Source of the DNA: Porphyra umbilicalis
Taxonomy: Eukaryota; Rhodophyta; Bangiophyceae; Bangiales; Bangiaceae
NCBI GenBank assembly: GCA_002049455.2
Contig: KV918930.1
Coordinates: forward strand, 1-64,000
Reading direction: 5' to 3'
DNA: 64,000 nucleotides
Shown here: in pieces, positions 5,761-64,000 of the stretch
Position numbering within the stretch: position 1 is the stretch's first letter
Layout of the letters: each line of letters starts with the position of its first letter
Program-made: the position numbers and the translations under genes
The notes under the pieces: model-generated
The model's database searches: none
What the model saw: only the letters and a program-made list of their open reading frames with translations
What the model was told of the DNA's origin: nothing

Positions 5761-5833
5761 CCCGATGTCCCTGTCGTCGTGGGCGATTCCGCCCGCGGTT
5801 TAAGGGGACGCTGTTGCTGTTACGCAAGAGAAT

Positions 5834-12816: not shown

Positions 12817-13226
12817 GTGAGGCTTTGTCTTGACGGTGAGCTCATGAGAACGTGATCGACCCGAAAATGACATCTACAGTCGTTCCACAAAAAACCTAGC
12901 ACTGGGCTGAGACCAATAGTGGCACTCAGATGTTCTATATGTGGAGTCAACCTCGCTCCAAACGTCCGACGTGTCACGAACTGATCTCAAAGTCGCTTCC
13001 TTGCGCAAAAGATGTTGTGTGCTGAAGCACACAGACAGCACATAACAGCAATGAGCCCTGCATCGCCTTCTCTGGCCCAACAGAACGTACAGCCCGGTCC
13101 ATCCATCGATTGAACTGCTCGACCAGTGGGTGGCGTGCTATGGGTCGCACGTCGCGTTCGAGCTGTTCGACCCAGCGAGGGGCCGGCCCGTCGACCAATC
13201 TAGTTGACTGCCAAGTGCGAGGTCGA
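12817..13226. other. Spacer, no recognisable gene
   Basis: Moderate-GC sequence lies between the 3' LTR and the inverted-repeat element. A 74-codon minus frame at 12974-13198 has no recognisable family. Confidence 0.4.
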
Positions 13227-41030: not shown

Positions 41031-41050
41031 AGCAGCTGTATGGTTACACA

Positions 41051-41090
41051 AAGGTTTTTTTTTCCCCATTGGGCAGGGTTTTTTTTTCCT
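41051..41090 (+). terminator. Double T-tract motif after transposase A
   Basis: The sense strand reads GGTTTTTTTTTCCCC, a short spacer, then CAGGGTTTTTTTTTCC, starting 20 bp after the stop codon. The same motif follows all four transposon genes in this window. A role in transcript end formation is inference. Confidence 0.6.
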
Positions 41091-42510
41091 TGACATGGTA
41101 GTCCATTGTGTGTCCCGGTAGGTCTGAGCCAGTTGGAACGCACGCGCGCGGATCCGGAAAAACGGAACAGGACAAGCAGTCGCCCGCGGGCGGCGTGCAC
41201 AGAGATGCGATGGTCGCACGCGGGAGCGGTTGGCCGCGCGGAGGGGCGCCAACAGGCGGCGCTGGTGGTGCCGGCCGACCCGCACGTGCCGCCGCCAGTC
41301 GCCACCGAAGGGCCGGCTGCGACCGTGAGGAGAGGCGCAGAGCGCCGCGCTCCCGTCGGCGGTGCCCGGGGAGCCAACGACGCACCGATGGCAGCTGGGG
41401 CCACCGGCTCCTGGGAGGACGCGCCGGCGCTCGCGGCCAGGGGCAGCGCGCACGACGACACGCAGCCGCTCGCGGGCGGCGGCGGGCTCTGCTCTGACGA
41501 GCTGCTGGCCTTGGGAACGACGGGCCAACAGCAGCGTGGTCTTCGACAAAGACACGGAAACCTTCGGCGGCAGGCCACTGACGCTTTGGGTTTTTACAAA
41601 GAGAACGGGTGTTCATTGGCTGCACGACACTAATTTTAATAAACTTTTTGTTGAAGCTTGGAACTACAGTCGGATCTGTCCTAGTATAGACGAAATCACA
41701 ATCCAAAACGCCGGAAATGCCGGCGTTCGACCAATGAGCACAAAACAGCTGAATACTATATTTGCTTTTCAGCCGTACTCTCGATGAAACACCTTCGCTG
41801 TTGTCGGTGGGGCCGTCCACCGCGATGGCTTCGCGGTGGCTTCGCAACGCTGGAAACGGCCCCCGGGGGCCCTGTCCCGAGAAGGCCGCTGCGGCCACAG
41901 CCGCCGCGGCTGCCCTCCTGCTGCGCCACAGCGCCGCCGTCCCTGCCGCCAGCCGCGGCCGCCGCCCCTCTCCGCAGGCGAGGGTGGGCGACAGCGGGGG
42001 TGGCGTCAGCGGCAGGGGCGCCGGCGGCGGCGGCAGAGGTGTTGGCGGTCGCGGCGGTGGCCGCCGCCTTACCGAGGAGCTGCGGCGCCTGCTGCGCCTG
42101 CGGCGCCCCGCCCTGACGCGCCGCCTGCATCACATTGATGTCAAGCGGCAAGCGGCGGGGCGCGCGTGTAGCCGCCGCTCCCTCGGCGTCGTGCGTCGGC
42201 GCGGAGCCGAGGAGCGGCACGCGGCGCGGCGGCAGCGCATCGCGCTCCAGCGGGGCGGGGCGCATCGCTCGCCGCCGGGAAGCAGCGCAGGTCCACACCG
42301 CGCGTTACCCCACGCGCCGCGCCCTGGTCGGCCGCTGCGACGGAGATGTGCGCGCATGTCGCGCGCGCGGGGGGGGGGCCGCGTGTCTAGCTGGTGCGGA
42401 GGATGCGACTCGGGCCGGAAAAGAATGCGGGGGGTGCGGGGGGTCATAGGCAAGCGCTGCGCGCCAGGTCCTTTTCATTCCGCACGTGGGCAAGCAATGA
42501 TACTTGTGTA
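41091..42510. other. Inter-gene interval of element A
   Basis: 1.4 kb between the two T-tract motifs. 41100-41580 is GC-rich with several overlapping frames. 41585-41820 is AT-rich with CCAATGAG. From 41824 an ATG opens a plus frame to 42511 of Ala/Arg/Gly-rich sequence (MASRWLRNAGNGPRG) without recognisable family; an overlapping minus frame (41756-42298) is similarly open. This is the position where element B carries its histone gene. I cannot say which frame, if any, is coding. Confidence 0.4.
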
Positions 42511-42547
42511 GGAAAAAAAAAACCCTGCCCAACGGGGAAAAAAAACC
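42511..42547 (-). terminator. Double T-tract motif after SANT gene A
   Basis: On the minus strand it reads GGTTTTTTTTCCCC, a short spacer, then CAGGGTTTTTTTTTTCC, about 64 bp after the SANT stop codon. Its core GTTGGGCAGGG nearly matches the motif after transposase A (ATTGGGCAGGG). Confidence 0.6.
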
Positions 42548-42610
42548 TATGTCATACTCAACATACACACGCAACACGTCGCACACAAAGGCAACAAACT
42601 ACAGGTCCCT

Positions 42611-44062
42611 CTACTCGGAATCATCGCTGTCGTCCAGCGACTCGCTGTCCTCGTCCAGGTTGCGAGTCGTGTTCGGGCTGCGCGCAAGCTGAGCCGCTGC
42701 TGCCTGCCGCTTGGTCTCCAGCGACCGACGGCCAGCGCCAGTCTTGGCGTGTTGACGCACGCGGGCCGGCGCAGCCTTGGCCGCCGCCGCCGCCGCCAGA
42801 GCAGAGGCTGATGTACCATCAGCACCCAAAGGCGCCGCCAGCGCTCCTCGCCCCGGCGGCGCCCGCGCTCCGGCGGCAGGGCCGGCAGCCGCCCGCACCG
42901 TCCCCGTCGAGTTATCAACACCCAGACCGGCGACGCCGTCGCCCACACCGCCGATAGAGTCGTCAGTCCCCTCACCCCCTCCCACGTCAATAGCAGACGA
43001 GCTCGCCACACCCGCACGCTCCAGCATCTTCTGCGTAATGGCTAAACGGTAACGAGCCGCCTCAGGGGTGTGCCGCATCAGCGGCGAATCAAAAAAGCAA
43101 AGGGCAGTGCGCTCGTGCTGCGCGTCGGTGAGCTTGTGGAGAGCTTCAGTGCTGGCCTTGACCTGAGCGTCCATCTGCACGTCCTCTTGGCGCTGCATCT
43201 TGGCCGCCTTGATGCCGACAGGCCGACCCTGAAAGCCGCCGTTGCGTCGGCTGCGGCCGCTACCGCTGCCGCTGCCACTCTCCTCCTCGTCAGACGACGT
43301 GTCGCCCATAATGTCCATGCCCGAGGCGTCACCGCCGTTGGCGGCGCCGCTAAACTTGTCGCTCTGCCGCAGGACGCGCCAGCACGCGACCCACTTGCAG
43401 TGCGCGACTTTGGCCTTGCGCTTGCGCGTCTTGTTGTCGACCTTGTCCTGGTTGCGGTCCGCTCGGATCGCGTCGTAAACGTCCAGCGAGCAATAGCGCG
43501 CCACAGCGCCGCTGATGAAGTCCTCCTCCGTCGGGTTGCCAGTGGTCGGCATGGCCTTAACAGCCAGGTAGTGCGACGTGAAGGCGCTCACACCCGCCCG
43601 AATGCGCTTAAACTGCTTCTCCAGCGCACTTGGAAGGCGCTCCACTCTCATCGGCCCCTTCCTCCGCACTTTCTTACCCCACACCTTGTGCGCCGTCGCC
43701 CATAGGTTGTCCTTGGTCCGGGCAGTCCCCTTCACCGCGTCGCTCGTCACCTCCAGGTACGCCTCACAGAGGGGCACACGGTCGGCGTCCGTCCACTCCA
43801 GAGCAGACCCCATCCTCTTGGGCAGCGAATACGTCACAGCCGATAGAGAGGCGGCGGGTGGGCAGGGAACAGCTGGGGCGGCCGCCGAGGTACAGGGACG
43901 AGCTGGTAGGTCGGGTCGACAGAGGGATGGTTCCCCTGCAAGACGTACACCGGACGGCTCAGGGGCTCTGCCGACGTCAGCTGCCGCAACGGCTGCGACG
44001 GCGCGGGCCACCAGGTCCACGGCGAGCAGGTGCTCCGTGTGGGCGTCTGGGTCAGCACCCAC
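42611..44062 (-). CDS. SANT/NAM-associated DNA-binding protein (Harbinger second gene, element A)
   Basis: A 483-codon frame. The open frame has no ATG before its conserved N-terminal stretch (VGADPDAHTEHLLAVDLVARA), so it must begin at GTG, be spliced to an upstream exon, or be entered from the overlapping proline-rich frame. Residues ~88-160 form a SANT/Myb-like domain (LEWTDADRVPLCEAYLEV, W121, ALEKQFKRIRAGVSAFTSHY). ~165-235 carry TTGNPTEEDFISGAVARY and a basic KRKAKVAHCKWVACWRVLR. A later block (ALCFFDSPLMRHTPEAARY, ~330-350) resembles the NAM-associated C-terminal domain, and the end is acidic. In PIF/Harbinger elements this partner binds the transposon ends and brings the transposase into the nucleus. 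The frame is intact here, while element B's copy has a stop. Confidence 0.85.
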   Translation of the reverse strand: MGADPDAHTEHLLAVDLVARAVAAVAAADVGRAPEPSGVRLAGEPSLCRPDLPARPCTSAAAPAVPCPPAASLSAVTYSLPKRMGSALEWTDADRVPLCEAYLEVTSDAVKGTARTKDNLWATAHKVWGKKVRRKGPMRVERLPSALEKQFKRIRAGVSAFTSHYLAVKAMPTTGNPTEEDFISGAVARYCSLDVYDAIRADRNQDKVDNKTRKRKAKVAHCKWVACWRVLRQSDKFSGAANGGDASGMDIMGDTSSDEEESGSGSGSGRSRRNGGFQGRPVGIKAAKMQRQEDVQMDAQVKASTEALHKLTDAQHERTALCFFDSPLMRHTPEAARYRLAITQKMLERAGVASSSAIDVGGGEGTDDSIGGVGDGVAGLGVDNSTGTVRAAAGPAAGARAPPGRGALAAPLGADGTSASALAAAAAAKAAPARVRQHAKTGAGRRSLETKRQAAAAQLARSPNTTRNLDEDSESLDDSDDSE

Positions 44063-46754: not shown

Positions 46755-46757
46755 TCA

Positions 46758-46782
46758 GACCAAACCCTACAACGTCGATCCC
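46758..46782 (+). repeat. Element B left terminal inverted repeat
   Basis: Starts GACCAAACCCTACAACGTC; TSD TCA at 46755-46757. The next ~180 bp resemble the SANT-side end of element A (shared GAGGTGCAACGTGTGG and CTGGGGGCCC words). Confidence 0.85.
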
Positions 46783-48374
46783 ATTCTCCAATTGGGGAAT
46801 CTAGAGGTGCAACGTGTGGCACGCTGAATGAAAAGCCCATTCTGGGGGCCCTGTTTGGCGCCAGGCGCGATGAAGTTGGGTTGAAACGAGCCACGAGACC
46901 GTCCGAATGGGGTCATTATTGCTGCGTTGAGCACAGCCCCATTCTGCTACATCAAATTTGAGTGAAACCGAGGAAGCGCTAAAGGATCTCCATCGGTGCT
47001 TAAAGAAACAGAGCCACCGAAAATATGGCCTGAAAGCGTGTGAAGCAGTCGCGGTGAGATCGCCACGTCCCTATCAAGCGCCAGCTATGCCGCTACAATC
47101 GTCGAAACCGATGACAACGTCGAAGAAAAGGAAATTTAAAGGGACTACCGGGCCGACACCTGGCACGGCCACGACATAAACAGGGCATTAAAAACATGCG
47201 ACGGGCCCCGGGCACTGTGCGGTCTCCTCGTGTACAGTCTCTTCGTTGTCAATCGGATCTGTTCGGGGCACCCAAGAAGCGGTAGGCGGCTGGGCGGGCA
47301 AACAGGCCAACGGGCGACGTCACTTGAGCGATCCGCATCGTGCGGCAGGATCGTTGCGAGATGCCAACAGGTCAGATACATCGCCAGCGTTACTCTCGGG
47401 AGTTGTTTTCAAACCGCCTAGCCTGGGGGGAGGCGTTGTGATTGGCCGAAGCAGTAAATCAAACCAATCTGTCGCGCTGGATTGCATCACTTTTGCCAAA
47501 AACTGTACTTTTGGAATCTGGTCGACGCCACAAAATGTCCGTTTCGGTCCCACATGCCCAATGGTCGGTGTAACCTGGCCCGCGTCACCGGATGAGATCG
47601 TGCACGAGTGGGCCACTGAAGAGGGGGCGAAGCGCTTTGCGCAATTTGAGGACACAGTGACGGCACAGAACGGATGGCCAGTCAGTCACGTGACAAGCTC
47701 GTCATCCTTTGACGTTGGAACGTCCCCCGCGCTAACGCCCTCTCTGGCTCTGGAGGCGTGACGGCAGTCAGCGCCGCGATTCGTCAGGGGCCGCCTGGCG
47801 GCCTCTCAGCTCTCCGACGCAAGTCGCGCGGTCCCTCAGGCATCCGACGTGGCCCGCGCGGCCCCTCAGCCGCCCGATGGGGGCCGCGCGGCCTCTCAGC
47901 CGTCCGACGTGGCCCGCGCGGCCCCCCAGCCGTCCGACGTGGCCCGCGCGGCCCCCGGGCCGTCCTACGTGGGTGGCGTGCATGCGTGCGGTTCCCGCCT
48001 TCAAGCGGGTCGGCGTGAACAGGCTGTGGTGGCGGGTCCCACTGGCTCGTCCCTCCGGATCCGCCCAGATTGTGTTGCGCGGACAGTGGGGCGCTGTGGA
48101 CGTGCTCCACGTGTGTCGACCGCCTGCCTGCGCGCTGGTCGGTTCCCGTTGGTGTCATTTTTTCGTTTGCCTGGGCCCCTGCGAAGCGGGCCCGGCTGAG
48201 GGCTGGGCGCTCCCACGCCGTCGGACGGCAGGTGGGAGTGGGCGTGACGCGGCGACGCGCCTCCTTCCTGTGGCACGGACGCCGACGTGCTCTGTCGCCC
48301 GCGTCTCTTTCACCCTCACGCGCCGTGTGCGAGCCCGCCCTCACTCACCCTTTCCGCCCACCCCAGCCGCTCGC
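46783..48374. other. SANT-side flank of element B
   Basis: Subterminal and leader region upstream of the proline-rich/SANT gene. 46960-47760 is moderate-GC and I see no gene in it. 47789-47975 is a tandem repeat. 48000-48370 is GC-rich leader. Confidence 0.5.
47789..47975. repeat. 30-bp tandem repeat
   Basis: Five to six copies of a unit like CCGTCCGACGTGGCCCGCGC plus GGCCCCTCAG. The period of 30 keeps frames open. Confidence 0.85.
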
Positions 48375-49955
48375 ATGACGCGTGTTAAGGGCGCCGGGGA
48401 CACGCGACGGCGCCGTGCACAACGGCTCCGCAACGGTCGCCTGGCCGCCCCGCCCTCTCCACCCTCCCCGCCCTGCACCTGTACGGGGCCGTGCAACCAC
48501 GAAGCCGCCGACGGGCGCCCCCCCCCCCCCCCCCCCATCTCCTCCCCAACGGTGCGCGCTACCCCGCCGCTGCTCCCGCCCCCGGTCCTGTCGCTGTGTC
48601 GGTCCCTGTGACCACGGCGCATTGGACGCTCCCCCCCCCCCCCCGCAGCGGGCCATGCAGGCGCGGCTGCCATCCCGCCCTGACCCCCGCCCCCCTCCGT
48701 TGGGGCGGCGGGACAATCGCCCGCTTTTGGACGGCGGCCGGACTCCCGTACAAGAGCGCCGCGTTCGTGCACGGCTAGACGACGGGCGCGACGGCCATCC
48801 GCTCTCACCTGACGCACGGCGGTTTGAGCACCCGCACGTTGGTCGTGACTACCCCTGTTGGCCAAGCCCCCCGCGAGGGCCGGCGGGTCCCCCACAAGGC
48901 CCCCCTCGGTGAAGCCCCCCTCGCGGGCCGGCGGGTCCCCCACAAGGCCCCCCTCGGTGGGGCCCCCCTCGCGGGCCAACGGGTCCCCGACGAGTCCCCC
49001 CTCGGTGGAGCCCCCCTCGCGGGCCGGCGGGTACCCCTGTTGGCCAAGCCCCCCGCGAGGGCCGGCGGGTCCCCCACAAGGCCCCCCTCGGTGAAGCCCC
49101 CCTCGCGGGCCGGCGGGTCCCCCACAAGGCCCCCCTCGGTGGGGCCCCCCTCGCGGGCCAACGGGTCCCCGACAAGTCCCCCCTCGGTGGAGCCCCCCTC
49201 GCGGACCGGCGGGTCCCCCACAAGGCCCCCCTCGGTGGAGCCCCACTCGCGGGCCGGCGGGTCCCCCACAAGGCCCCCCTCGGTGGAGCCCCCCTCGCGG
49301 GCGGGCGGGTCCCCCACAAGGTCCTCCCCGGTGTAGCTCTGCTCGACGGCCGTTGGACGACCATCGGTGCCCGTACGGCGGCCCCCCCCCCTGTGACGGT
49401 CCCACCCCTGGGCACCCCCCACCAAGCACGTGGGATCCCGCCTTGCGGCCGCCGTCCATCCCTCCGACGCTCTGGATCGGCGCGTCACCCGCCAATCCGC
49501 ACGGCGGGCACGCCTACGAGTGGGCGCTGACGCCCGCAAAACAGCCGAGCACATCCTCGCCGTTGATCTTGTTGCCCGCGCCGCCGCCGCCGTTGCCGCA
49601 GCTAACGCCAGCAGAGGGGGCGCGGCAACCGCTGTTCGTCATCGGCGGCAACCAAGTCCCGCCCCAGCAGCAGACGACGCAGGCGGCGGCGCCCCAACCA
49701 CTTTACGCACTCGGCGGGGGCCAAGCCCCGCCTCCGCAGCAAACGACGCAGACGGCGGCGCCCCAACCCCTGTACGTACTCGTCGGGAGCCAAGCCCTGC
49801 CCCAGCAGCAGACTCCGCCGGACGCGGCGCCCCAACAACTGTTCGTTATCGGCGGGAGCCAAGCCCCGCCCCCGTCGTCGTATATGCTGGTGCCTGCTCG
49901 CGCCCAGCCTCCCTACCACGGTCTCCTTCACCCCCCGCCGCCGTACCGGCAGTAA
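48375..49955 (+). pseudogene. Proline-rich frame upstream of SANT gene (element B)
   Basis: It starts MTRVKGAGDTRRRRAQRLRNG, clearly homologous to the proline-rich frame of element A. The frame is interrupted near 48611 and again within the 48-bp repeat block. An open part at 49353-49955 has four ~23-codon repeats around QPLYVLVGSQALPQQQ and ends PPPPYRQ, overlapping the SANT frame in the -1 register as in A. Confidence 0.5.
48858..49330. repeat. 48-bp tandem repeat
   Basis: About ten units of the form TCGGTGNAGCCCCCCTCGCG, GGCCGGCGGGTCCCCCAC, AAGGCCCCCC. A larger duplication joins two blocks starting at 48851 and 49033 (182 bp apart). The 16-codon period would encode repeats like PPSVEPPSRAGGSPTR. 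Confidence 0.9.
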
Positions 49956-51226
49956 ACTACAACGTGCCGAAGTCGATGGGGTCTAGCCTAGGCTGGACTG
50001 ATGAGGACCGCGTGCCGCTGTGCCGCGCGTTTCTCGAGGTGAGCGGTGATCCGGTTATGGCTACCGGGCGGTCAAAGGACGAGCTGTGGGCGGCTGTGCA
50101 CAAGAAGTGGACGGACCTAATGGCCGAGAAGGGTCCTCTGCGCGTCAAGCGCAACGTGAGCGCGCTCGAGAAGCAGTTCAAGAATATTCGAAAGGGGGTG
50201 AGCACCTTTACCTCTCACTACCTGGCAGTCAAGAACATGCAAACTACTGGCAACTTGTCGGAGGAGGACATTATCAGTGCGGCCATTGCACGGTACTGCT
50301 CGCTGGACATCTACGAGGCCATCCGCAAAGACCGGGAGCAGGACAAGCGCAAGGGCAAGGCGGCAAAGCGGAAGGCAAAGCTCGCGCATTGCAAGTGGGT
50401 GGCATGCTAGCGCGTGCTGCGTACGTCGGACACGTCCAGCGGCGCTGCCAACACAACGGACGACCAGAGCGTGGACCCGGATGACTCGTCGGACGAGGAC
50501 GAAGACAGCGGCAGCACGAGCAGCCCCAGTGCGCGCAACAAGGGCTGCCAGCGCCGACCGTGTGGCATTAAGTCCACCAAGCTGATGAGGTCCGAGGACG
50601 CGGGTATGGAGAGGGAAGGCAAGGCGAACACGGCGGCTATTGACAAGCTGACGGCGGCGCAGCAAGAGCGCACCGCGCTGTGCTTTTTCGACTCCCCCGC
50701 AATGCGCAACACCCCGGAGGCGGCCAAGTATCGCCGAGCAGTGATGCAGAAGATGATGGCAAGTGCCGGCCTTGCGGAGAAACCTGCGCCGCCTGCCCCA
50801 CCAAAGCCTACCCCACCTAAGCCGGCCAAGACCAAACCTGCGACAGATATCCTCGTTGTCGAGGTCGACGACGGCGTGGCCGCCCTGGACGTCTCCTCCA
50901 TCCCTGCTGATGCGACTTCGTCGGCGCCGCCGGCGCCCGCCTCAACCGCCGGAGCCACCTCGCCGCCGGGGGAGGACCCACCGGCGGCGTCCGTGGCATC
51001 AGATACCACTGCAGCTGCCACGGCTCCGGCGGACAAGGCGGCGACGCCGGCGGCACAAGCAAAGCAGCGCAGCGGGGGGGGCGACCACCAGCGCCGCCGC
51101 AAGACGCAAGCCGCAGAGCAGCTGGCCGCCTCTGCGTCTCTCAACAAACCGCTCGAGACCACCCGCGGTCTCGAGCACAGCAGCGAGTCTGAAACGACGA
51201 CGACGACCACCACGGAGTCTGAGTAG
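49430..51226 (+). pseudogene. SANT/NAM-associated DNA-binding protein, element B copy with one stop
   Basis: Homologue of the SANT gene of element A. The conserved start region is VGADARKTAEHILAVDLVARA, the SANT domain is near 49990-50190 (LGWTDEDRVPLCRAFLEV) and the NAM-type block is ALCFFDSPAMRNTPEAAKYRRA. The frame is continuous except for an in-frame TAG at 50408-50410, exactly where element A has TGG (KWVAC-W-RVLR versus KWVAC-stop-RVLR). Before the SANT domain it has four ~69-bp repeats (49640-49930; RRxPSPAPAADxAGxGAP). As in A there is no convincing ATG for this frame. The single lesion suggests recent decay, suppression, or use of a truncated product. Confidence 0.85.
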
Positions 51227-51291
51227 CTTATCGAGTGTGTTGCTTTGTTCTTTGTGCCTCAGCTCCATGTGGCAGCAGTCCGATACCACGA

Positions 51292-51331
51292 AAGGTTTTT
51301 TTTTCATCCCTCTTGGGGTTTTTTTTTTCCT
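51292..51331 (+). terminator. Double T-tract motif after SANT gene B
   Basis: GGTTTTTTTTTCATCCC, then TTGGGGTTTTTTTTTTCC, 65 bp after the SANT stop. Fourth-copy comparison shows the T-tracts and flanking GG/CC conserved while the centre varies. Confidence 0.6.
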
Positions 51332-51734
51332 ACACTTGTGTTCACGCCCATCTCGGTGCACACTGTTGCCAGTGACGCAGCGCACGCATCGGGGCGGCGG
51401 CGTCAGAGCCATCCGCAGCCGCGTCCCCCACTAGCTTCACGCCGGGCGCGTCACAGAGTTGGTCCCGCCTGACCCACCATTGCCCGCCTCTCTCCCCTCC
51501 GCACGTCGCACCCCGTCCGCCTTGCCGTCGAAAGCGTTACCACACAACGGTGGCGCCAACAACGGCTGTTGCTGCAGCGGCGGCAGCCCACGCGGTCCTC
51601 GCCACCAGTACTACAGGAGGGCCCGACAGGGCGGTAAAAAAAGCTATTCCGCAGAACAGCTGTCTAAGGACCATCACCCCCCCCGCCTGTCCGCCCACAG
51701 AGCGGCTGCCGGCCGCCACGGCCGCTCCGCCTGG

Positions 51735-52180
51735 CGGCACCAGCCAGGCTGCCAGCCGTGCTGAGGGCACGCCGCCCAGGCAGGCTGCCCGCCGCGGGAG
51801 CGTGCCGCCCAGCCAGGGCGGCCGCCGCGGGAGGGCGCCGCCCAGCCAGGGCGGCCGCCACGGGAGCGCGCCACCTAGCGAGGCTGCCCGCCGTGCCGAT
51901 GGGGCGCCGCCCAGGCAGGGCGCCTGCCGCGGGACAGCACCAGCCAGCCTGGCTGCCCGCCGTGCCCGGGCGCGCCGCCCACCGAGGCTGCCCGCCGTGC
52001 CGGGGCGCGCCGCCTACCGAGGCTGCCCGCCGCGCGGGGGCGCGGCGCCCCGCCAGACTGTCCGCCGTGCCGCGAGCGCGCCACCCAGCCAGGGCGCCCG
52101 CCGCGAGAGCGCGCCGCCTAGCCGGGCTGGCCGCCGTTCTAAGGGCGCGCCACCCAGCGAGGGCGCCCGCGGTGCGGACC
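51735..52180. repeat. 33-bp tandem repeat in a basic low-complexity frame
   Basis: Roughly a dozen diverged units of GGCCGCCGCGGGAGCGCGCC plus GCCCAGCCAGGGC lie within an open plus frame 51550-52362 that reads as PPSQGGRRG-type repeats. I do not call it a gene. Confidence 0.7.
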
Positions 52181-52199
52181 GCCACCGTCGCCGACGGTT

Positions 52200-53257
52200 A
52201 CTGAGGCTGTCGCCGCGGGCGCGGCCGTGCGCCACCAACAGCACGCGTGCCGCATCGGAACGCGTTTGTGCCGCATCGGAACGCGTTTTGCTCGGCCAGC
52301 CTAGAATCCCAAAGATCGATCATCATTTATCAGCGTGGGCTTTCAACTTTGAACCAAACTGAATCCGCATTCTTCCAGCGCAACGCTTTTTATTTCGGGA
52401 GTGTTGGGATCAGTCGAACGATGCGGTAAATGAATGGCCCTGCATGACCCATGCCAGGCCTGTGTCGTGTGCACAGAGTTCAAAGTGCCAGAATACGTAC
52501 ATATCCCTACACATTTCATATCCTACTTTTCGAGCGGGGGGCACCAAGCAAGCATGTCGATGGTGCCCAGAATGGCAACGTTCATGCATCACTTATCGAA
52601 ATAAAGTACCACCCAACTAGATTCATTTCCAAATTTTGTGAGTTTGCTATTGCGTGTCTTGTGATCATGTTGTGTGCCTGTCGCATGCTCATTTCCGGAG
52701 TCTCGTGTGGATCCTGGCATCGCAAGAGATCCGTTATTTGACACCGAACTTGCATATCTTTTAAGCCGAACAGAAAGGGACGCAAGAGAACAGGCTGATG
52801 CTGGCATTACTCACTGTCCAATCGCATGCGAGAATCGTACGCTGTAGCCAATGGAGTGCGAAAATTCTAAAGCATACAGCTCCAGGGCAGGCCAAACAGG
52901 CAGGCTCCGCCACCCGTCCCCGCTGCGCCACGGGCCAACTAGGGCGGCGGCGCGGGGGAAATTTGATCCCCTGTACGCCGTCTGTCCTCGGTGCGGCCAC
53001 CACCGCCACCCTAAGTCGGGTGGCGCCATCGCCTCTCGCTGGCGGTCCCGACCCCACCGGTGGCCTCCCACCGACGCCATTCCCCTCCCCACCGCCACGC
53101 CCCGCACCCGCACGAACCTCTCCGTCGTGGCCACCGCCCTGCCGGCAAGTTCTCTGCTGCTACCCCGCCCCCGACGGCGGTACCCTCTGCGTCCGCGGTG
53201 CCTTTTGCCGCCGCACATTCGGGGGCGGCGGCGGCGCGCGCCTCCCTCCTCCCGACC
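52200..53257. other. Part of element B cargo interval, no recognisable gene
   Basis: 52260-52880 is AT-richer than its surroundings, with a duplicated GTGCCGCATCGGAACGCG near 52245. 52900-53250 is GC-rich. No terminal repeats of a nested element were found around it. Confidence 0.4.
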
Positions 53258-54466
53258 ATGGCGCCGGTGTTGAGGGCACCGGCGACGAGCGGCTCGGCGG
53301 CGGCGGCGGTGGCGGCGGTTGTGGCCGTCACGGCGCCGCAAGCGCCGCCCCAGGCGATGCCGTTGCCGGAGGTGCTGCTGCCGTCAGGCGCTGCTGCCGG
53401 CATCTCAACCGCCGACCCCGCATCGTCGTTGGCGGTGACGGCAGCGGCGGCGGCGGTACATTGTCAATTGGGGCGTACCCCCCCCCCACCCCCCCTGGCC
53501 GCACGTCCCATCGCGCGGGGGGCATTGTCGGGGTACCGTCCCCCCCCCCCACCTCCCCCGCCGCTCGCCGCTGCCATCACGTCGCGCCTCGCGGGGCGGC
53601 TGCCGGCCCACGTGGGCGCGTTTGTGCGCGCCGCGGCGGGGGCAGGGGAGGGGTGGCGCGTGGCCACCGCAAGCGCGGCGGTGGTGGCCGCCGCGCGCGA
53701 CAACGATGCGGCCATCCCCGGCCTCCGCCACGGTCTCGCGTGGGCAGGCGCCGGCGGACCCGCCGCCCACCGCGCCGCCGTCGACGGGGTGCAGGCGTCG
53801 GCGCTCGCGACGGTGGCGCGGCGCAGGGGGTGCGAGGGGCCGTTCCGCCCGGCGCCGCCGCGTCCGAGGCCCTGCCGACCCGGCAGCGGGGGGGGCGGGG
53901 GAGGGGGTGTCTTCTGCAGCGGCGATGGTTCTCGTGCCGCTCGTGGGTTGCGGGGGGGGGGTGGACCCCGCCCCCCCCCCCCGCCGCCCACGAACGGCAC
54001 GACTTGGGTGGCCGCCTCGGCGGCGATGGCGGCGGCGACCCCCCCCGGCGCCGGCAGCAGCACGACGGCTGCGCGCAAGACGGCGGCCGCCCGCCGCTGC
54101 ACCGGCCCGCCGACCGGCGCCGCTTGGACGGCCGTGCGGAAGGCGGCCGCAGCTAGCGCCGTGCCGCCGACCACGTCGCGGGGGAAGAGGCAGGTGGCAG
54201 GCCTGCCGGCGGAGCCGCCACCCCCAGCACGGCAGCCACTGCCCCCACCGCCCGTTGCGCCGTCGCCGCCGGCCGCCCGGCTCACTCGACGCTGGCCCGC
54301 TTTGACTTGGTGCCCCCGTAAGGGGGCGCTGACAAGGGTGGATGGGGGAGTCGACCTGTTTGTTCTTTTTTTTTCTTTTGCGAAAGTTTTCCCACTTTCT
54401 TTCCCGTCTCCATCCAGCACACGAACAAGGTCACTCGCAGCAGTGAATGACGGTAACAAACTATAG
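53258..54466 (+). CDS. Possible low-complexity protein next to the H3 gene
   Basis: An ATG in good context (ACCATGG) opens a 402-codon frame, MAPVLRAPATSGS. It is Ala/Pro/Gly-rich with one more normal stretch (LAAAITSRLAGRLPAHVGAF to ARDNDAAIPGLRHGLAWAGA, ~110-180). It ends 26 bp from the stop of the convergent histone H3 gene. A minus-strand frame of 331 codons covers the same place, so coding status is uncertain. No family recognised. Confidence 0.35.
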   Translation: MAPVLRAPATSGSAAAAVAAVVAVTAPQAPPQAMPLPEVLLPSGAAAGISTADPASSLAVTAAAAAVHCQLGRTPPPPPLAARPIARGALSGYRPPPPPPPPLAAAITSRLAGRLPAHVGAFVRAAAGAGEGWRVATASAAVVAAARDNDAAIPGLRHGLAWAGAGGPAAHRAAVDGVQASALATVARRRGCEGPFRPAPPRPRPCRPGSGGGGGGGVFCSGDGSRAARGLRGGGGPRPPPPPPTNGTTWVAASAAMAAATPPGAGSSTTAARKTAAARRCTGPPTGAAWTAVRKAAAASAVPPTTSRGKRQVAGLPAEPPPPARQPLPPPPVAPSPPAARLTRRWPALTWCPRKGALTRVDGGVDLFVLFFSFAKVFPLSFPSPSSTRTRSLAAVNDGNKL

Positions 54467-54492
54467 GCAGGCCCCTCAAAAACCAGATAAAT

Positions 54493-54900
54493 CTACGCCC
54501 GCTCACCGCGGATGCGGCGAGCAAGCTGAATGTCCTTCGACTTGACAGTGACGCGCTTCGCGTGGACAGCGCACGGTTGCGCGTCTTGAAAAAGCCCGAG
54601 GATGTACGCCTCGGCCGCCTCCTGCAGCGCGAGGATGGCGGACGCCTGGAAGCGCGGTGCGTTCGTGTACTTTTGCGCGACTTCGCGCACCAGTCGCTGA
54701 AAGGGGAGCTTGCTGAGCAGCAGCTCCCCCGAGCGCCTAAAATTGCGAATGTCGCGCAGGGCGACCGTGCCAGGCCGGTTGCGGCGCTTGACCGCGGGCT
54801 TGCTACCGGCCTTGGTCGCCCGCCGCGCGGCAGCCCGCGCCCGACCAGCCGGCGCCTTGCCGCCAGTAGACCGCCTTGCCGCTTGCTTCGTCCGCGCCAT
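54493..54900 (-). CDS. Histone H3 variant lacking K9, K27 motif, K56 and K79
   Basis: An intact 135-residue histone H3 ([20 protein letters not shown] to [14 protein letters not shown]), nearly the canonical length. The histone-fold core is well kept: [13 protein letters not shown] (alphaN), [13 protein letters not shown] (alpha1), [20 protein letters not shown] (alpha2), and [20 protein letters not shown] (loop 2/alpha3). Loop 1 is not lengthened (QKYTNAPRF), so it is not a typical CENP-A. K4, S10 and K14 are present, but T6 is A, K9 is R, the ARKS motif around K27 is absent (AAARRATK), K56 is R (NFRRSGELL) and K79 is T. C110 is kept. It would package DNA in nucleosomes that cannot be methylated at K9 or K27. 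It lies inside element B between its two convergent genes. The start is the only ATG with the H3 N-terminus. No histone 3' stem-loop was seen. Confidence 0.93.
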
Positions 54901-57211
54901 TGCGGCGGGAGGGAGGGGCAGTGGCAGGAGCAGATGAGGGCGGAGTTGGGGGCACACAACGAGGTGAGTGGGGAGTGAGGTGCGGTGGGCAGAGCCGTGC
55001 GCGGAGGCGAGAGCGTTGGTGCAAGCCTAGTCACAGTGGGCGCGGCAGGGGCAGGCGGTGACACGGTCCAAGGCTGGCGGGGGAACGGGGCGGGGGGGGG
55101 GGGGGGGTAGGCTGATGGGAGAAGCTGTGCGACAGGGCGACGCAGACAAGACTAGGATGGCCTCCTTCTTGTAGCAGCCATAGGCCTGCGGTTTAACCGT
55201 AGATCGCTTGCACGCCCAGCGCCTTCCACAGTCCCCCGGGGCAGGTCCCAAAGTCCATCGCGCCGCGAGCTGGATGCATCGAGGGAACCCTTTTCAGCGG
55301 GGTACTGAGCTCGCAGAGTCATGCAATCCCAGCGTCTTGGGCTTCCCGTAACTGTGTGGAAATGCTTGGTTGGCACCCTCAGCCGGACTGTTTTCATGCC
55401 GAAGTGCGCATTGAATCGGCAGACAAAGGGCTGCTGATCCGACGGGCTTCGACAGTCACCTCCTGTTGACGATGACGCCCCCCTCTGTGCGGCTCCCATG
55501 GCCTTGCCTCGTCCTGCGCACCACCGTCCACGCCCCCAGATCTCCGGCTCACGGCCTCACGACAACGCGTGCAGATCCGCACCTCCTGGCCTCAGAGCAA
55601 ACAGCGAATTTGTAGTGAACAAATGTCTGCAGGTCCCGTCCCGCTTCGTTTGCGCAGGGGCTCCTGCCCACGACCATCCATTGGATGCTGACGACTTGAA
55701 CAGCATCACCCGGACCAATGATGTGACTTAGAATCGTTATTAAGGGACTACGCTGAAGAAAGCCTTGCACTGATTTACCAAGCCAAGTGTGCTGATTGGT
55801 TCTTGATGTTATTGAAGCGATCACGGAAGGGGATCTACACTTGTGTCTTTGGGATCTGTTCAGACATGGACTCTTTTGACTGGACCGGGTCCGTCTCGGG
55901 GCACATTGGAAAACGCACATTTGGATTCGTACCCAGACCTGATTTTCGTAAAGACAAAAAGTTTTTTGATATTACGTGCAGGCAGAAATGTTTATTTATT
56001 AACGCAATTTCGGGCGGAAGGCGTTCCCTGCGGCCAAAGTGGTGTGGCCCACGAGCCTGACGCGCTGCCGCCCGCCCGACTTCGCAGAAGGTCGCAGGTG
56101 CGACCGCCTGCGACGCGTCCGCCTCCGCGGCGCGTCCCAGCTGATGGTGATGGACGGCGGCTGCGGCGGCCAGCGGCCCCTGTGGCGGGCGTCTACCTCT
56201 GTGGTACTGCTCTTGGCGACGGCGTCCGTCACGGCGGCCGCGGCTGCCGCCCCAAAGAGCCGCCGCCGCCGCCGCCGCCGCGGAACGACCGCTCGGAGCT
56301 GCCGCCCTCTGCGTCTACAACAACCGCCGCCGCTGACCGCCCCGCCGCCGCCATCGCGGCGCGGCGGCGGCCCACAGCTAACTGGGCACGGCGGTCGCGC
56401 CGTTGGCGCCGCGAACCGCGAACCGCACTGCCCCCCCCCCACCCGGCAGGCAGCCCACCGCCCCCACGACGCCATCCCCCGCACCGGCCGGCACCCACGA
56501 CCCCTTCCGCCGCACAACGGCACCGCCGCCAAAGATGCGCCGGCCGTCAGCGGCCTGGGAGCGGCGGGCTGGCCGTTGCGGCCGCCTGCCGCTCGCCGAA
56601 CCGCCCCACCGCCCGTGGAGAACGCGCCCCCCCCACGCCACGCCCACCGACGAACCGACCGCACGCCCGCCACTGCACCCAATACTCGCCCGCAACCCAC
56701 CGCACCAGGCCCCGCACCCGACACTCCCCCGCACTCCACCACGCCCACCACCGCGCCCGACTATCCCCCGCACCCCACCACGCCAGCTGCCGAACTGACG
56801 GCAGGCCCGCAACCGCGCGCTCCGCTCGCGCGCCGCGCCACACCCAGCTACCCGGCACCTCTGACAGCCCCTCTCTGCCCGCCGCCGCCGACACGGTGCC
56901 AGCCGGCACGGGCTGCTCCCGGCGGGCTGGCCGTGGCGGCCGCCCGCCGCCACCGAGCCGACGGCGTCCGACAGCGGCCCGGCCCTGTTTCAATGGCCGT
57001 TTCGGCCGTCTGCCGAACGCCGCGACCCACCCCCGCACCCGTCGGGCACCCCCACGCCCCGCAACGCCCACCGGCGCACCCGCCGACACACGCTAACTAT
57101 CCCCCACCGTGCGCTTGTTTGGCGACCGACACACCGCCCACTGCGGCGCCACTGAGGCCGGAGCCGGAGTCTCCCGCCGCTCCCGTAGACACGGTCGACG
57201 CAAGAATGTGT
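54901..57211. other. Rest of element B cargo interval
   Basis: 54960-55130 is the GC-rich 5' flank of the H3 gene, with a G run at 55090. 55130-56030 is moderate-GC with no recognisable gene. 56030-57110 is GC-rich with plus frames (for example 56039-57295) encoding Pro/Arg/Ala low complexity after a hydrophobic SVVLLLATASVTAAAAAA segment; no family recognised. Confidence 0.4.
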
Positions 57212-57252
57212 TGGAAAAAAAAATCCCTACCCAGCGGGGAAAAAAAAAACCG
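57212..57252 (-). terminator. Double T-tract motif after transposase B
   Basis: On the minus strand GGTTTTTTTTTCCCC, a short spacer, then TAGGGATTTTTTTTTCC, about 30 bp after the transposase stop; counterpart of 41051-41090. Confidence 0.6.
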
Positions 57253-57282
57253 TTGTATGCCTCCTCTATCATGTACTTCGTG

Positions 57283-58819
57283 TTACCCAATGTAAGGGGC
57301 AAGCAGATCGCCTCGGTCGCAGAAAATGCCCGCAGTCAGGTCGTCGCGCAGGCTCTCGCACTCCGCCGGGTTCTTTGTCTCAGCCCACGCGTCAAAATTG
57401 GCAGCCATACCGGCGGCGGGCGGGTGAGGGGCCGGATGCAGAGCAGGAGGTGCGTTGCCGGCGGCGTCGATGTTGCCCATTGCGGCCGCGACGCCGCCGG
57501 AGCCGTCGGCAGCGGCGCCGCCAGGTGCAGGTCCCCCGGCGGCAGCATCACCGACAGCATGCGCCCCACCACTCTGTCCATCCCCGCCATCCGACACGCC
57601 ACCGGCGTCGCCGCCTACGCCACAGTTAATTCCACCATCACCCCCCACCTCACAACGACGGCGGCTCAAAAAGGTGCTACGACGGCTCTTGACACACATG
57701 TTGTGCAAAATACATATGGCCTTGTGCGTTGTCACCAGCTGCGACACAGAGCGGTAGCGCCCAGGGTGGAGCGCAACATGAAAGCTCTTCATCAGGACGC
57801 CAAACAGGCGCTCCACGTCCTTGCGGATGGCCTCTTGGAGGCGGTTGAACGTCGTCTGCTCCTCGGTGGACGGCTTAGGGTGAGGCGAGATCAGGAAAGC
57901 AAAGCGCGGGTAAATCCCGTCGACGAGGTAGTAGGGAAGCGTCCGTGTGGCCATTTATCTTGTAGGGCTTGTTGCGCGGCGGCCACCGACCGCCAGTAAT
58001 GTCCAGGTAAAGCGGCGAGGTATGCATGACGTTGATGTCGTTCAGACTGCCAGGGGCCCCTACAAATAGGTGCCACACCCACAGGTCCTCGTCACAAACA
58101 GCTTCCACAACGATCCCACGCTTGCCCTTACGACTCTGATAGGCCCCCGCCATCCCCGTCTGACATTGGTGCCACTCCCAGTGACAACAGTCGAGGGAGC
58201 CGATACACCCGGGCATCCCCCGCTCCTTGTTCCGCTCCATGATCTGGTTCAGCTCGTCCTGGTTGGGTCGGCGCAAGTAGGTAGGTCCCCACCGCTTCAC
58301 AATGAAGTCCATCAGCAACTTGTTCGACGTCGCAATCATCGTCCGGGACAGCCGCACGTACTCGTCGGCTCGGTCGGCCGCCTCGCCGTAAGCGATAACA
58401 CGAAAAGCAGTCACCACCTTTCGTAGTGGGTGCGCTCGCAACTTGCCCGTGGCATTGATCCGCTGTTGAAAAAATGGCTCATCCTTGACCGCCATTTAGA
58501 CAGGCCGGAACACAGCGCGAGGGACACGGAACCGCGTCTCGAAGTCCCGCTCGTCGTAGATTGGCGGAAGACAACCGACACCAAAGTAGTCCCGTAGAAT
58601 GCCTTGCAAACCAGCCGAAAAGTCACGGCGCTTTTTGCCGCGGCGCCCGGTAGTAGAGCCGCGATACCTTCATTGTCGGGCAATGCGTTGGGCGCGCGCG
58701 CGTCGGCGTACAGCCATCAGCACGTTGACATGAGCTTGGACAACGGCAGCTACATCCGCGCCGTCGTCCTCAGCCAGCAAGGTCGCAGTGGCCGAAAACT
58801 CCTCCTCCTTGCCGTCCAT
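57283..58819 (-). pseudogene. PIF/Harbinger transposase, element B copy, broken
   Basis: Homologue of the element A transposase, starting MDGKEEEFSATATLLAEDDG at 58819. Catalytic residues are recognisable: D in GSLDCCHWEW, D in GSLNDINVM, E in KDVERLFGVL. Three lesions are visible: a TGA at 58670-58672, a TAA at 58496-58498 (where A has Tyr in RRIYLAVKDE), and a one-base frameshift near 57955 between KINGH and RTLPYYLVDG. The C-terminal linker and tail (FDAWAETKNPAE) match A. It is therefore not autonomous, and any movement of B would need a transposase in trans, for example from A. Confidence 0.88.
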
Positions 58820-60163
58820 AGCGAGAGCAGGGACACCGACGACCGGACCCCGTGGGGCGCAGGAAGCGGATGGGGAAAACAACAGGCGCGTGCAGTCCGG
58901 CGTCAAGAGGGAGGAGTGGGGGGGGGGGGAGGCGACCGATGCACGCAGCGCCCGTCCCGAGCGAGGTCGCGCAGGAGGAGGGAGCCAAGCGTGCAAGGAG
59001 GGGTGGAAGGGTGAGATGGAGATGCCGGCGCGCAAGATAGCGACCGGCGCGTGCCGATCGCATCCGGTCGGGGAGGACGGGCGAGTGGGATGGCAAACAC
59101 GAGCGATGCGGGCGGAGCGCGTGGTTGGTGGGATGGAGGAGGGGGCGCGTTGGCCGTGCTCGCGGGCGTGGTGGGTGGGCGAAAATCGGCGGCGGCGGGA
59201 TGGGCGTGACGACGGCGGTGAGAAAGGGTGGGCGTCCCGTGCCATCCCCTAAATGGCGTGTCCGGCCGACCACTGCGGACAGCCACCCCAGCACACCCCC
59301 CCACCGCTGATGCCCGCCGGAATGATTCCCCACCTCCCCTCCCAGGCACGCGCGTCGGGGTCCCCCCCCGCCGCCCCCCCCAGGCAGCGCTCGTGCGGGC
59401 CCCTGCCACTGACGCAGGGTGGCTCGGAGGCCACTCACTTCCAGATGGCACGGATCGCGGCTCCCGCCATCAAGGGGCGACCGTTCGGGCTCTAGCACCC
59501 CCTCAGGCAGCTCGCAGGGCGCCCCAATCGCTGTGGCACAGCGCCCGGCCCAATCTCGCCCCTCCGGGCGGCGCAGTCGACGGCCCCGGCCGCCCTCGCG
59601 CCACGACCTCCCTCCACGTGGGCCCCCAGGGAGGGCCAACGCAGGCACACCGCACCCGGCTTGACTGCCCCCCCCCTCTCAGATTGCCCTGTGAGCGATG
59701 CGTGGGAGGCACGCGGACGCAAAAATATCCGACGCGCTTCCATCTGAGCACGCCGTAACCGAAAAATCTCGCGAGAGCTGTCGGTCCGCTGTGGAGAGGA
59801 GTGGTCCACATCGATAATTTCTCGTTTCCGAAAGATATTGAAAAACCAAGGCTGATCGTGGGCCCACACGTTGCTCGCTTAAGCGTGCTATCTTTTGTAC
59901 TGTTTTGAATCGTTCGACCAATGAGAGAGCATAGAAGAATGGGGTCGGCTTGGGACCGACCCCATTTCCGGTCGGGGATGGGGTCGGTCCGGCACAGGCC
60001 CCATTTCTGAAACCAGCATATGCGTTGTACTTACGTCATTTGATTCTGTTAAAACGAAGCCTCAATGGGGTCGCAGACGTTGATGCGGGAGCGTTCCGGC
60101 CCAATTTCCTTAATATTGAGACACGTTTGCGCCACGTTGCGCCACGTTTCGCAAATATGACTT
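58820..60163. other. Transposase-side leader of element B
   Basis: Upstream region of the transposase gene. 58830-59500 is GC-rich with overlapping frames on both strands but no recognisable family. 59700-60163 is moderate-GC, and its last ~250 bp match the transposase-side end of element A. Confidence 0.5.
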
Positions 60164-60188
60164 GGGGCTGACGTTGCAGGGTTTGCTC
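60164..60188 (-). repeat. Element B right terminal inverted repeat
   Basis: Inverted partner of 46758-46782; ends GGGTTTGCTC followed by TSD TCA (60189-60191). Confidence 0.85.
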
Positions 60189-60191
60189 TCA

Positions 60192-61776: not shown

Positions 61777-64000
61777 CAGAGATGGGAGGTGATTTTTTTA
61801 TGATTTAAATCATGCTGATTTTAATGATTTAAGTCATTTACCCGGAGGGTCTCATGATTTAAATCACATGGGCATTCTCCTGCTTACACTGTTGAGACCT
61901 GACACTGACCGACGAGCAAGAGTCAAGCTCCCTTTCTACGTGTCGTCGTTCCGGATTGCAGGGCGCCGAGAGTCGCCGGACACGTTAGTCGACAAGATCA
62001 AGGAGCAGCTGTGTCTCATCGTGGGTGCCGCGGAGGAGTCGTGGCAGTCTTTCCACAACACAGGCTTTGTGACAGACTCTCCAAACGTCAACCGCAGCGC
62101 GCGGACTAAGCTTCTGTCAGCCGATGTGTTCTCCTTTGCGTACGGATGCACTGCGCACGCGTTAAGCAATCTCTGCCGCCATATCATCAAGATGCCAGCC
62201 GTTTTACGCTTCGTGTCCTTCTGCTCCGTGCTGGCCAAGTATTTCCACAATCACCACCTGCCCAGAGCCCACCTCATCAAGCAGCAGCAGACGGAGACGC
62301 CGCAGCCGCCAGCTCAGAAGCTGTCTACTCCAACGAGGTGGACCGGAACAGTCTGCCTGCTGACCAGTGTTCTCAAGAACCAAGGTTCGATCACAACGGT
62401 ACTGTTCAAGGCCAAGCAGAGGGTCATCGACATGGACTTCCCCCCCTCCCTTTTTGACTTGGTCATGGAGAACGACGACTGGGACAACGTGGCCCAATGG
62501 GAGCCCGCATTGTACACATTTTCGGCTATCATCAACTATCTACAGGCCGACACCACGCCCCTCTCTGGCGTCTACGCGTGCTTCCTGTCCCTGGAGGCAT
62601 ATTTGGTGCCGTCCAACTTTCCCTTGTCCATCCGTGACGAGATCAGAGGCTTCATCAAGCTGCGGTACGCTACCATCTTCTCTCCCGCCCACGTGCTCTC
62701 CTTCTACCCCGACCCGGTCTTCGTACCATTCCGCGAGATGTCGCGGGCATCGACCGTAAAGCCGTGCACAATGACGGATGCGGCGGTGTGCATGAAAGCG
62801 GCCAAGCGACTCGTGCGGACCGCCTCCGAGGAGGAGAAGGTCACTGTGGTTATGCAGGTGACACAATTATTTATGGGGTCTTTCCCATTTTTGCGGACAG
62901 GTGCGGTCGAGGAGTCATCTAGGGTGTCCCTGCGGCACGTGTGGTGGAGTTTGCACGCCGAGGGCGCTCCACCCGAGCTGCGAGCGGTGGCTGCCCAGAT
63001 GTTCTCCCTTGCACCCACGTCCGCAGCCGGGGAGCGCAGCTTCAATCAGCGCTCCCGCGTCCACAGCAAGACGCAAAACCGCCTGAGTGACGACCACGCG
63101 AACAAGACCCAGGCCATCATTTTCAGCAAGCGGCAGACTAGACGCTTCTACGGCAGTGTGCTTCTCCAGGCGCGCACCACGTGCGCGGAGGCCCACATGG
63201 TCGGTATGCTGCGCCGCAGCTGTCCAGATGGCAGTGGTGGTGGTGATGGAAACACCATTGCTGGTGGCAGTCAAGTCGATGGTGTGGGTGGTGCCAGTGG
63301 GGATGGTGTATTGGAGCAGGAGGTAGGTGAGGGCGAAGAAGAGGAGGCGCTGGCCGACGAGGATGTGGAGACTGTGGCTGGCGCGCAGGAGGCTGTTGCT
63401 CGTCTGATTGAGAAGGCTGAGGCAGAGAGCAAGTACACATAGGAATGGAAAATAATATCCCGTACTTCAGCTGAGCGCCGCGAAAACTTGCCGCGCGCTG
63501 GCGGGGACGCGTACTCCGATCACTGCGACGGTGTCCTCAGACAAATCGGACGCGTTTTGTGCTGGCTGGCGGCTATGTCATTGGCAACCGCTACGGACGA
63601 CAGCCACAACCACGACCACCACCAGCAACACCTCCGCCGCCGCCGCCGCCGCCGTCGCCGCTGCCCCTGAAGCCCGCCCCCCCCTCCCCCCCCCAGGCCT
63701 CTGCGGGCACAGCCGTGCCGTCGCCCAGCACAATCTCCCGCCCCCCAAACAGAAAGACAACTCTCACTTGGAGAGGTGCCGCCCAGGGGCTTTTGAATCC
63801 GTCACTTTTCATAGAATCTGAATATACTCCAGTTGCGCTGACATGCACTCAGATTTGAGTTTTTGATGATATCATGTATCTGGATTCGGATCTGACCTCG
63901 TCGGTCGGATTCAGGATCAGCATTATATTCGGATATGTTATCGCTCCGATTTCGATTATAATCTGTGTACCTAGAGTGAGAATATTCCGTCCGAGGACAC
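61777..64000 (+). mobile_element. hAT transposon, left end and transposase; right end outside window
   Basis: The left terminus reads CAGAGATGGGAGGTGATTTT, a hAT-type CAG(A/G)G end. It is followed by three copies of the palindrome-like TGATTTAAATCA / TGATTTAAGTCA (61800-61868), typical subterminal repeats of hAT elements. The transposase follows. No inverted CATCTCTG end or copy of the flanking CACACGGG (8 bp before the left end) occurs before the window ends, so the element probably continues. After the gene, 63600-63720 is C-rich, and 63870-63960 repeats the word TCGGAT. Confidence 0.7.
61868..63442 (+). CDS. hAT-family transposase (DUF659 type)
   Basis: An open frame of 524 residues. Residues ~75-120 (FVTDSPNVNRSARTKLLS and the following AHALSNLCRHIIKMP) match the DUF659 catalytic region of hAT-like transposases, with the Asp of VTDS as a likely catalytic residue. 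STPTRWTGTVCLLTSVLKN follows at ~155. Residues ~350-420 are the hAT C-terminal dimerisation domain (WWSLHAEGAPPELRAVA, APTSAAGERSFNQRSR, KTQNRLSDDHANKTQAIIFS). The acidic, Gly-rich tail ends at 63442. The frame starts only 91 bp from the transposon end and has no BED zinc finger or first catalytic segment, so the N-terminus is probably deleted, although the remaining frame has no stops. It is probably a deletion derivative. Confidence 0.85.
   Translation: MGILLLTLLRPDTDRRARVKLPFYVSSFRIAGRRESPDTLVDKIKEQLCLIVGAAEESWQSFHNTGFVTDSPNVNRSARTKLLSADVFSFAYGCTAHALSNLCRHIIKMPAVLRFVSFCSVLAKYFHNHHLPRAHLIKQQQTETPQPPAQKLSTPTRWTGTVCLLTSVLKNQGSITTVLFKAKQRVIDMDFPPSLFDLVMENDDWDNVAQWEPALYTFSAIINYLQADTTPLSGVYACFLSLEAYLVPSNFPLSIRDEIRGFIKLRYATIFSPAHVLSFYPDPVFVPFREMSRASTVKPCTMTDAAVCMKAAKRLVRTASEEEKVTVVMQVTQLFMGSFPFLRTGAVEESSRVSLRHVWWSLHAEGAPPELRAVAAQMFSLAPTSAAGERSFNQRSRVHSKTQNRLSDDHANKTQAIIFSKRQTRRFYGSVLLQARTTCAEAHMVGMLRRSCPDGSGGGDGNTIAGGSQVDGVGGASGDGVLEQEVGEGEEEEALADEDVETVAGAQEAVARLIEKAEAESKYT

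Follow-up and report, generated by a model that had tools for sequence, protein, structure and literature searches.

The histone H3 gene at positions 54493-54900 of the window is almost certainly a selected, functional gene of the PIF/Harbinger transposon in which it lies. The window is the whole stretch of DNA that was analysed, 64,000 nucleotides from the red alga Porphyra umbilicalis. The element in the window is a copy in decay, from a PIF/Harbinger lineage that has kept H3 as a working third gene between two convergent genes, for a transposase and a Myb-like protein. The original prediction that the element carries its own histone is upheld by the fixed place of the gene, its co-divergence with its neighbours and the constraint on it. 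As to its role, we put at about even the chance that nucleosomes built with this H3 would resist silencing methylation at K9 and K27. The features of the element are:

46755-46757, no strand: left target-site duplication TCA, read from the sequence
46758-60188, no strand: PIF/Harbinger element, subfamily A, 13,431 bp, with terminal inverted repeats (TIRs) and TCA duplication
46758-46777, plus strand: left terminal inverted repeat, 20 bp, from the TIR match
49430-51226, plus strand: Myb/SANT-like (NAM-associated) second gene, frame broken by a stop codon at 50408-50410
51734-52186, no strand: GC-rich, internally repetitive spacer with repeated self-similar matches, present in subfamily-A siblings
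54493-54900, minus strand: histone H3 gene, 135 aa, intact, with R9, R56 and T79 (Pfam, phmmer)
57283-58819, minus strand: Harbinger transposase (Plant_tran / DDE_Tnp_4), pieces in different frames, upstream limit placed by reference to where intact siblings start
60169-60188, minus strand: right terminal inverted repeat, 20 bp, from the TIR match
60189-60191, no strand: right target-site duplication TCA, read from the sequence

Translation of the minus strand at 54493-54900 gives an unbroken H3 frame of 135 residues, with the stop included in the interval; the plus strand of the same interval encodes no H3. The protein matches the Pfam Histone family (PF00125, E 4.9e-34) and, by phmmer, solved H3 chains across residues 1-135 (E 1.2e-47). 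The histone fold and H3 sequence are present over its whole length, and 75 of the 94 residues of the histone-fold part are shared with the host H3. The intact frame that had been predicted is present, with its strand corrected to minus.

The TIRs of the element match at 17 of 20 bases. Homology to a sibling element stops at 60188-60191, with the ending GGGTTTGCTC TCA, and the matching left end at 46758 stands behind a TCA. With up to three mismatches, the 17-bp core of the TIR is matched three times in the window, where shuffled sequence gives 0.16 matches on average. With at most one mismatch there are 119 matches in the genome, against 0 for a reversed-pattern control. Ten siblings were picked for having both ends match the TIR pattern; all ten carry identical 3-bp TNA duplications, and their TIRs are identical at 20/20 bases in nine elements and at 19/20 in one. 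The transposase of an intact sibling matches Plant_tran (E 3.6e-60) and DDE_Tnp_4 (E 1.2e-15), and the pieces in the window reach E 7.9e-32 and 1.1e-19. The element therefore has the Harbinger-type DDE transposase by which a PIF/Harbinger DNA transposon is recognised. The Myb-like gene of an intact sibling scores E 0.0065 for Myb_DNA-bind_4 and E 4.9e-5 for the NAM-associated domain, both below the Pfam cut-off. Siblings with longer open frames of the Myb-like and transposase genes are present in the genome. TIR statistics, sibling ends and transposase domains agree with the earlier reading of a PIF/Harbinger element with matching TIRs and a TCA duplication. Alignments of the element with six further copies of subfamily A stand at 92-96%. 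An assembly join, named earlier as a possible source of the arrangement, is excluded for the H3 region, as 54000-55500 is unbroken in all six of the other subfamily-A copies fetched with flanks.

Other features were recorded in and around the element. Internally repetitive GC-rich stretches lie at 51734-52186 and 49596-49872 and recur in siblings; they might be binding sites, because repeats are the targets of VANC proteins in VANDAL elements. Just outside the element, a 524-aa open frame at 61868-63442 contains a hAT dimerisation domain (PF05699, E 7.3e-6). At 39822-43960 the window holds a second Harbinger transposase-Myb pair, an H3-less sibling with no H3 between its genes.

A search of the 83.8-Mb genome gave 77 H3 matches, of which 76 were read (C132:199976 was left out). 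Full-length matches, or matches one residue short, number 42 of the 77 and are 72-100% identical to the window H3; 39 of these 42 Harbinger-type copies have no inner stop. The arrangement scored was that of a transposase 5' of the H3 on the same strand and a Myb-like gene 3' of it on the opposite strand. Both genes lie within 8 kb of the H3 in at least 24 of the 42 copies, a lower bound since a shorter transposase list was used for this count. Among the matches listed, 16 of the 42 have one neighbour gene only, and two (C29:279495 and C3:721247) have neither within 8 kb. Among the other 35 H3 matches, at least eight, decayed or partial ones, have such neighbours too. As a control, H4 has 2 loci and H2A 5 loci in the same genome, and each H4 locus divergently adjoins a canonical H3 on contig C17. 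It is therefore H3, and not histones in general, that has spread.

Convergent transposase-Myb pairs number at least 89 in the genome; the count covers the 150 transposase candidates that were scored, out of 740, and 123 of the 204 Myb matches. Among the matches listed, 27 pairs have an H3 between the genes and 62 have none; the gap has a median of 7,688 bp (4,246-10,284) in the former and of 3,000 bp (2,052-12,951) in the latter. The transposases of the 27 H3-bearing pairs, among the matches listed, are 76-100% identical to that of the window, and H3 appears from these sequences to be the cargo of one Harbinger group. With at least 27 pairs and at least 24 of 42 copies, the check first proposed comes out in favour: copies of this H3 sit between the paired genes of numerous Harbinger elements. 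In C173, C16 and C76, whose transposases stand at 92, 85 and 84%, no H3 match lies between the two neighbouring genes; H3 appears to be absent there by loss or decay, and it may be dispensable given these three cases. In each of four pairs compared from subfamily B the longest shared block spans 6-10 kb at 99.5-99.8% identity, and in four pairs from subfamily C it spans 3.8-6.4 kb at 96.8-97.5%. These blocks show that the H3-bearing Harbinger elements have been recently mobile. When further cargo genes were sought by tblastx, GC-rich repeats dominated the matches.

Beyond this genome, metagenome proteins include further H3 subfamilies. Of 35 metagenome-protein matches fetched, three are canonical H3s and 29 of the other 32 have arginine at position 9, as read by eye; the 32 include two P. 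umbilicalis records. Among the matches listed, P. umbilicalis is the sole red-algal species recognised by name. A scan of IMG/VR returned 90 pattern matches and no relative. An ordinary K9R gene outside any transposon was sought in the P. umbilicalis genome: the host H3s on C17 and C540 have lysine at position 9, and two of the 42 copies showed no transposase or Myb match within 8 kb. Caution is due with H3 matches in the P. umbilicalis genome, most of which are transposon genes.

Selection on the H3 is seen between subfamilies. With one or two representative copies per subfamily and bounded frames, its dN/dS (NG86) is 0.07-0.11 for A-B and A-C and 0.03 for B-C. Between subfamilies the transposase core gives 0.06-0.10 and the Myb-like gene 0.17-0.19. 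On these figures H3 is under a constraint close to that on the transposase core and tighter than that on the Myb-like gene. The dS is similar in all three genes, which have thus diverged together. An earlier reading, which had H3 under tighter constraint than the transposase, was withdrawn, as the values of 0.18-0.25 for the transposase and Myb-like gene came from frames with pre-start sequence and a shifted end.

Within subfamilies, 31 of the 39 copies (eight unassigned to A, B or C were left out) carry 107 distinct nonsynonymous and 38 synonymous changes, a ratio of 2.8 vs a mutational expectation of 2.66. The consensus H3s of A and C differ by 13 nonsynonymous and 49 synonymous changes. The within and between counts differ with a Fisher p of 1.9e-12 for changes that are not fully independent; a cruder count gives 107 : 53 within subfamilies vs 11 : 51 between. 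The copies thus drift after insertion, with constraint acting only on the jumping lineage. Drift within and constraint between subfamilies mark the H3 as belonging to the element, and not as a host gene or a passenger. It is kept by selection as such, a feature looked for in a transposon anti-silencing protein that is VANC-like in effect.

The window copy differs from the subfamily-A consensus by 11 nonsynonymous (T6A included) and 5 synonymous changes and is therefore itself drifting. Against the nearest full copy, C58, its dN/dS is 1.35. Identity between the window and C58 is 96.1% for the H3, 96.2% for the left spacer, 96.4% for the transposase, 97.1% for the Myb-like gene and 93.2% for the right spacer; the window H3 is thus as diverged as nearly all of the element around it. 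The original prediction of selection on the H3 is sustained by the between-subfamily dN/dS of 0.03-0.11. The reason it gave, an intact H3 beside decayed neighbours, was rejected, as the window copy drifts.

The residue alignment comprised 42 rows of at least 65% identity, with a Met start, no inner stop and at least 130 residues: 39 transposon copies and three host H3s, three stop-bearing full-length transposon copies being left out. Position 9 is arginine in 39/39 copies, with the codon CGG in all, which gives no sign of selection on position 9 specifically. Position 27 is arginine in 38/39 and tryptophan in one, in an alignment-dependent column, and position 56 is likewise arginine in 38/39 and tryptophan in one. 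Position 79 is threonine in 39/39, encoded by four synonymous codons. No lysine occurs at positions 18 and 23 among the 39 copies. Lysine is kept at positions 4, 14 and 122 (38/39 each) and at 64 and 115 (39/39). Positions 36 and 37 align as alanine and valine, but a lysine following valine lies two positions further towards the core, so that K36 may have been retained. Indels occur in the stretch 17-36, and the K27, K36 and K37 columns are therefore alignment-dependent. The three complete host H3s have lysine at each of these positions (3/3).

The tail opens MARTKQTAR, its first ten residues being those of the host tail except at position 9, and the ARKS/ARKT motifs with K9 and K27 are absent from the transposon H3, the K27 column depending on the alignment. 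In the window H3 the residues are as first reported: K9 is R, K56 is R and K79 is T, with K4, S10 and K14 kept. The reported loss of ARKS/K27 holds in part: K27 aligns to R, in a column that depends on the alignment of a stretch with indels. The GC-rich genome may favour the change from lysine to arginine.

The transposon H3 is changed at lysines whose marking is a frequent means of silencing transposons, and arginine at 9 and 27 cannot take lysine methyl groups. The transposon H3 would most likely join host H4 in nucleosomes, given that 75 of 94 residues of its histone-fold part are identical to the host H3. Chromatin built with it would escape the host silencing methyltransferases, which could not mark an H3 with arginine at positions 9 and 27; K4 and K14 could still carry active marks. 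Deposition may amount to a genome-wide dilution of host H3, or the Myb-like protein or the transposase may steer it to the element; no element-targeting domain was found in the transposon H3. The element DNA, or the whole nucleus, would become poorer in silencing marks, and new or freshly repaired element copies would remain transcribable long enough to transpose. Expression of the gene and a benefit to the element are both presumed in this scheme. The sequence itself shows that H3 was kept through subfamily divergence and recent jumps.

The evidence for silencing evasion includes arginine at 9 and 27 where the host has lysine in 3/3, and the keeping of K4 and K14 in 38/39. It draws further support from a second, Plavaka-linked H3 with Arg9, from published chromatin cargo and from the red alga Cyanidioschyzon merolae, for which H3K27me3 is described as lying mainly on repeats (PMC5405695, PMC13353863). 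Against it, K18, K23, K56 and K79 (and K37 in the alignment) are lost too, the R9 codon is invariant, the genome is GC-rich, K27 depends on the alignment, the H3 showed no domain that would target it to the element, and three close relatives show no H3 match.

Instead, the H3 could be a structural helper of transposition that opens or marks the element ends or steers the transposase/Myb complex, with the lost lysines incidental. Its co-divergence with the transposase and Myb-like genes and a constraint near that of the transposase core would fit such a role, as would the many fixed non-host residues besides 9 and 27, such as T79 with its four synonymous codons. Yet 62 of the at least 89 convergent pairs, among the matches listed and including one in the window, have no H3 between them, so that Harbinger elements as a rule can transpose without it. 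We regard this explanation as unlikely, if a serious one.

A decoy is less probable. Here the H3 would compete for H4, chaperones or silencing enzymes and weaken host silencing without entering the chromatin of the element. Mimicry of the host tail in the first ten residues, except at position 9, is in keeping with this, and many intact copies could yield a dose effect. However, the whole histone fold is conserved (75/94 vs host H3), which exceeds what a tail decoy needs, and the classic inhibitory change in histones is from lysine to methionine, not from lysine to arginine.

The many intact frames might also suggest host domestication, with the copies serving as an ordinary supply of H3 variant. 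This is very unlikely: copies drift neutrally after insertion, constraint is seen between subfamilies only, and the two of 42 copies that, among the matches listed, have no neighbour gene show no constraint as far as examined. A captured host variant hitch-hiking as a functionless passenger would account for the neutral drift of the window copy and other single copies, but is highly improbable against a between-subfamily dN/dS of 0.03-0.11 and 13 : 49 changes between subfamilies vs 107 : 38 inside them. That a transposon carries a centromeric (CENP-A-like) H3 is scarcely credible, for the sequence is a divergent H3 but the loop that joins its first two core helices is as long as in host H3 where CENP-A has a longer loop 1, its tail begins MARTKQTAR where that of CENP-A is divergent, and a different single match, C17:290760, is one residue longer in the loop and a better candidate. 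The latter is a single H3 variant on the same contig as two host H3-H4 pairs, and its slightly longer loop 1 makes it a candidate centromeric H3.

A second set of H3 genes is associated with Plavaka transposons. Nine matches form a divergent group (C83, C121, C1, C390, C61, C39, C150, C12:464318 and C2:451453), and the full protein of C83 has a tail longer by ~100 residues. A C2H2-finger gene lies 1.5-2 kb downstream of seven of the nine (8/12 rows for that gene), and behind it stands a Plavaka transposase (PF18759, E 5.7e-11 in C150). Of the nine Plavaka rows at 70% identity or above, six have a divergent H3 2.8-3.4 kb away. Two tails in this group, GRTKTPATRS and GRTKSPARRS, keep K4 and S10 and have arginine at 9. 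In a core tree the group of the Harbinger H3s with P0093 has a support of 94/94 and the Plavaka H3 group one of 97/99. A joint Harbinger-Plavaka clade is unsupported, at 58/72 in a tree with one mis-cut row (P0145) and at 32/9 without it, and a single clade of the Harbinger H3 and host H3 is not rejected (p-AU 0.093). These short core trees neither show nor reject a common origin of the Harbinger and Plavaka H3s; if the two lines were taken up independently, their shared Arg9 is convergent. We consider it plausible, with the odds somewhat against, that two superfamilies in one red alga encode H3s unmethylatable at 9 (and in Harbinger also at 27). The parasite would then bring nucleosomes of its own that resist silencing, a counter-defence that works through the histone and not through an enzyme.

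Other divergent H3s were also noted. A third group with the tail MARVKQ.. is present in C268, C281, C137 and C37, with arginine at position 9 in three and leucine in one. C240:95863 is a single divergent H3 with the tail MARTKNTARRTPPPP and arginine at position 9.

If silencing evasion is true, a transposon supplies the substrate itself with its silencing lysines replaced, which would be a new layer in the host-transposon arms race. The role of H3K9 and H3K27 at red-algal transposons becomes a testable question. No transposon-encoded histone was found in the openly readable literature that was searched. The word histone is absent from the main text of a review from 2026 on how plant transposons capture genes (PMC13317346).

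Chromatin genes besides the transposition genes have been described in other DNA transposons. A SET histone methyltransferase gene was reported in HarbingerS and MuDR elements of Phytophthora (Kojima and Jurka 2014, as cited in PMC12730594). As there described, the cargo is an enzyme that writes marks, whereas that of the Porphyra element is the histone that would bear them. SET-domain queries gave 79 and 90 matches in the present genome, many in frames of 500-1,400 codons. These far exceed the expectation for host genes and are possibly transposon-borne SET genes as in HarbingerS.

TET/JBP genes occur in many fungal DNA transposon superfamilies, including Harbinger and Plavaka (PMC12730594). 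There too, several superfamilies of one host group share a kind of gene, and the author suspects an escape from silencing; the protein in fungi is an enzyme acting on DNA methylation and no histone is involved in that account. The VANC anti-silencing proteins of VANDAL elements in Arabidopsis are likewise transposon-encoded and kept for the element's own spread (PMC5735166, PMC10398659). They bind sequence motifs of their own elements, unlike the Porphyra H3, which has no such domain and whose anti-silencing effect is putative. Viral H3 and H4 histones are also known (review PMC9145170); there too one core histone is encoded by a genetic parasite and is believed to assemble with those of the host. 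One viral H3 is described there as keeping all lysines except K79, whereas the Porphyra H3 loses 9 and 27 too. The transposon counter-defences described in these sources target either the marks themselves (TET/JBP, SET) or the way in which silencing is recruited (VANC). Chromatin cargo in DNA transposons is already known, and the core histone as cargo is the new part.
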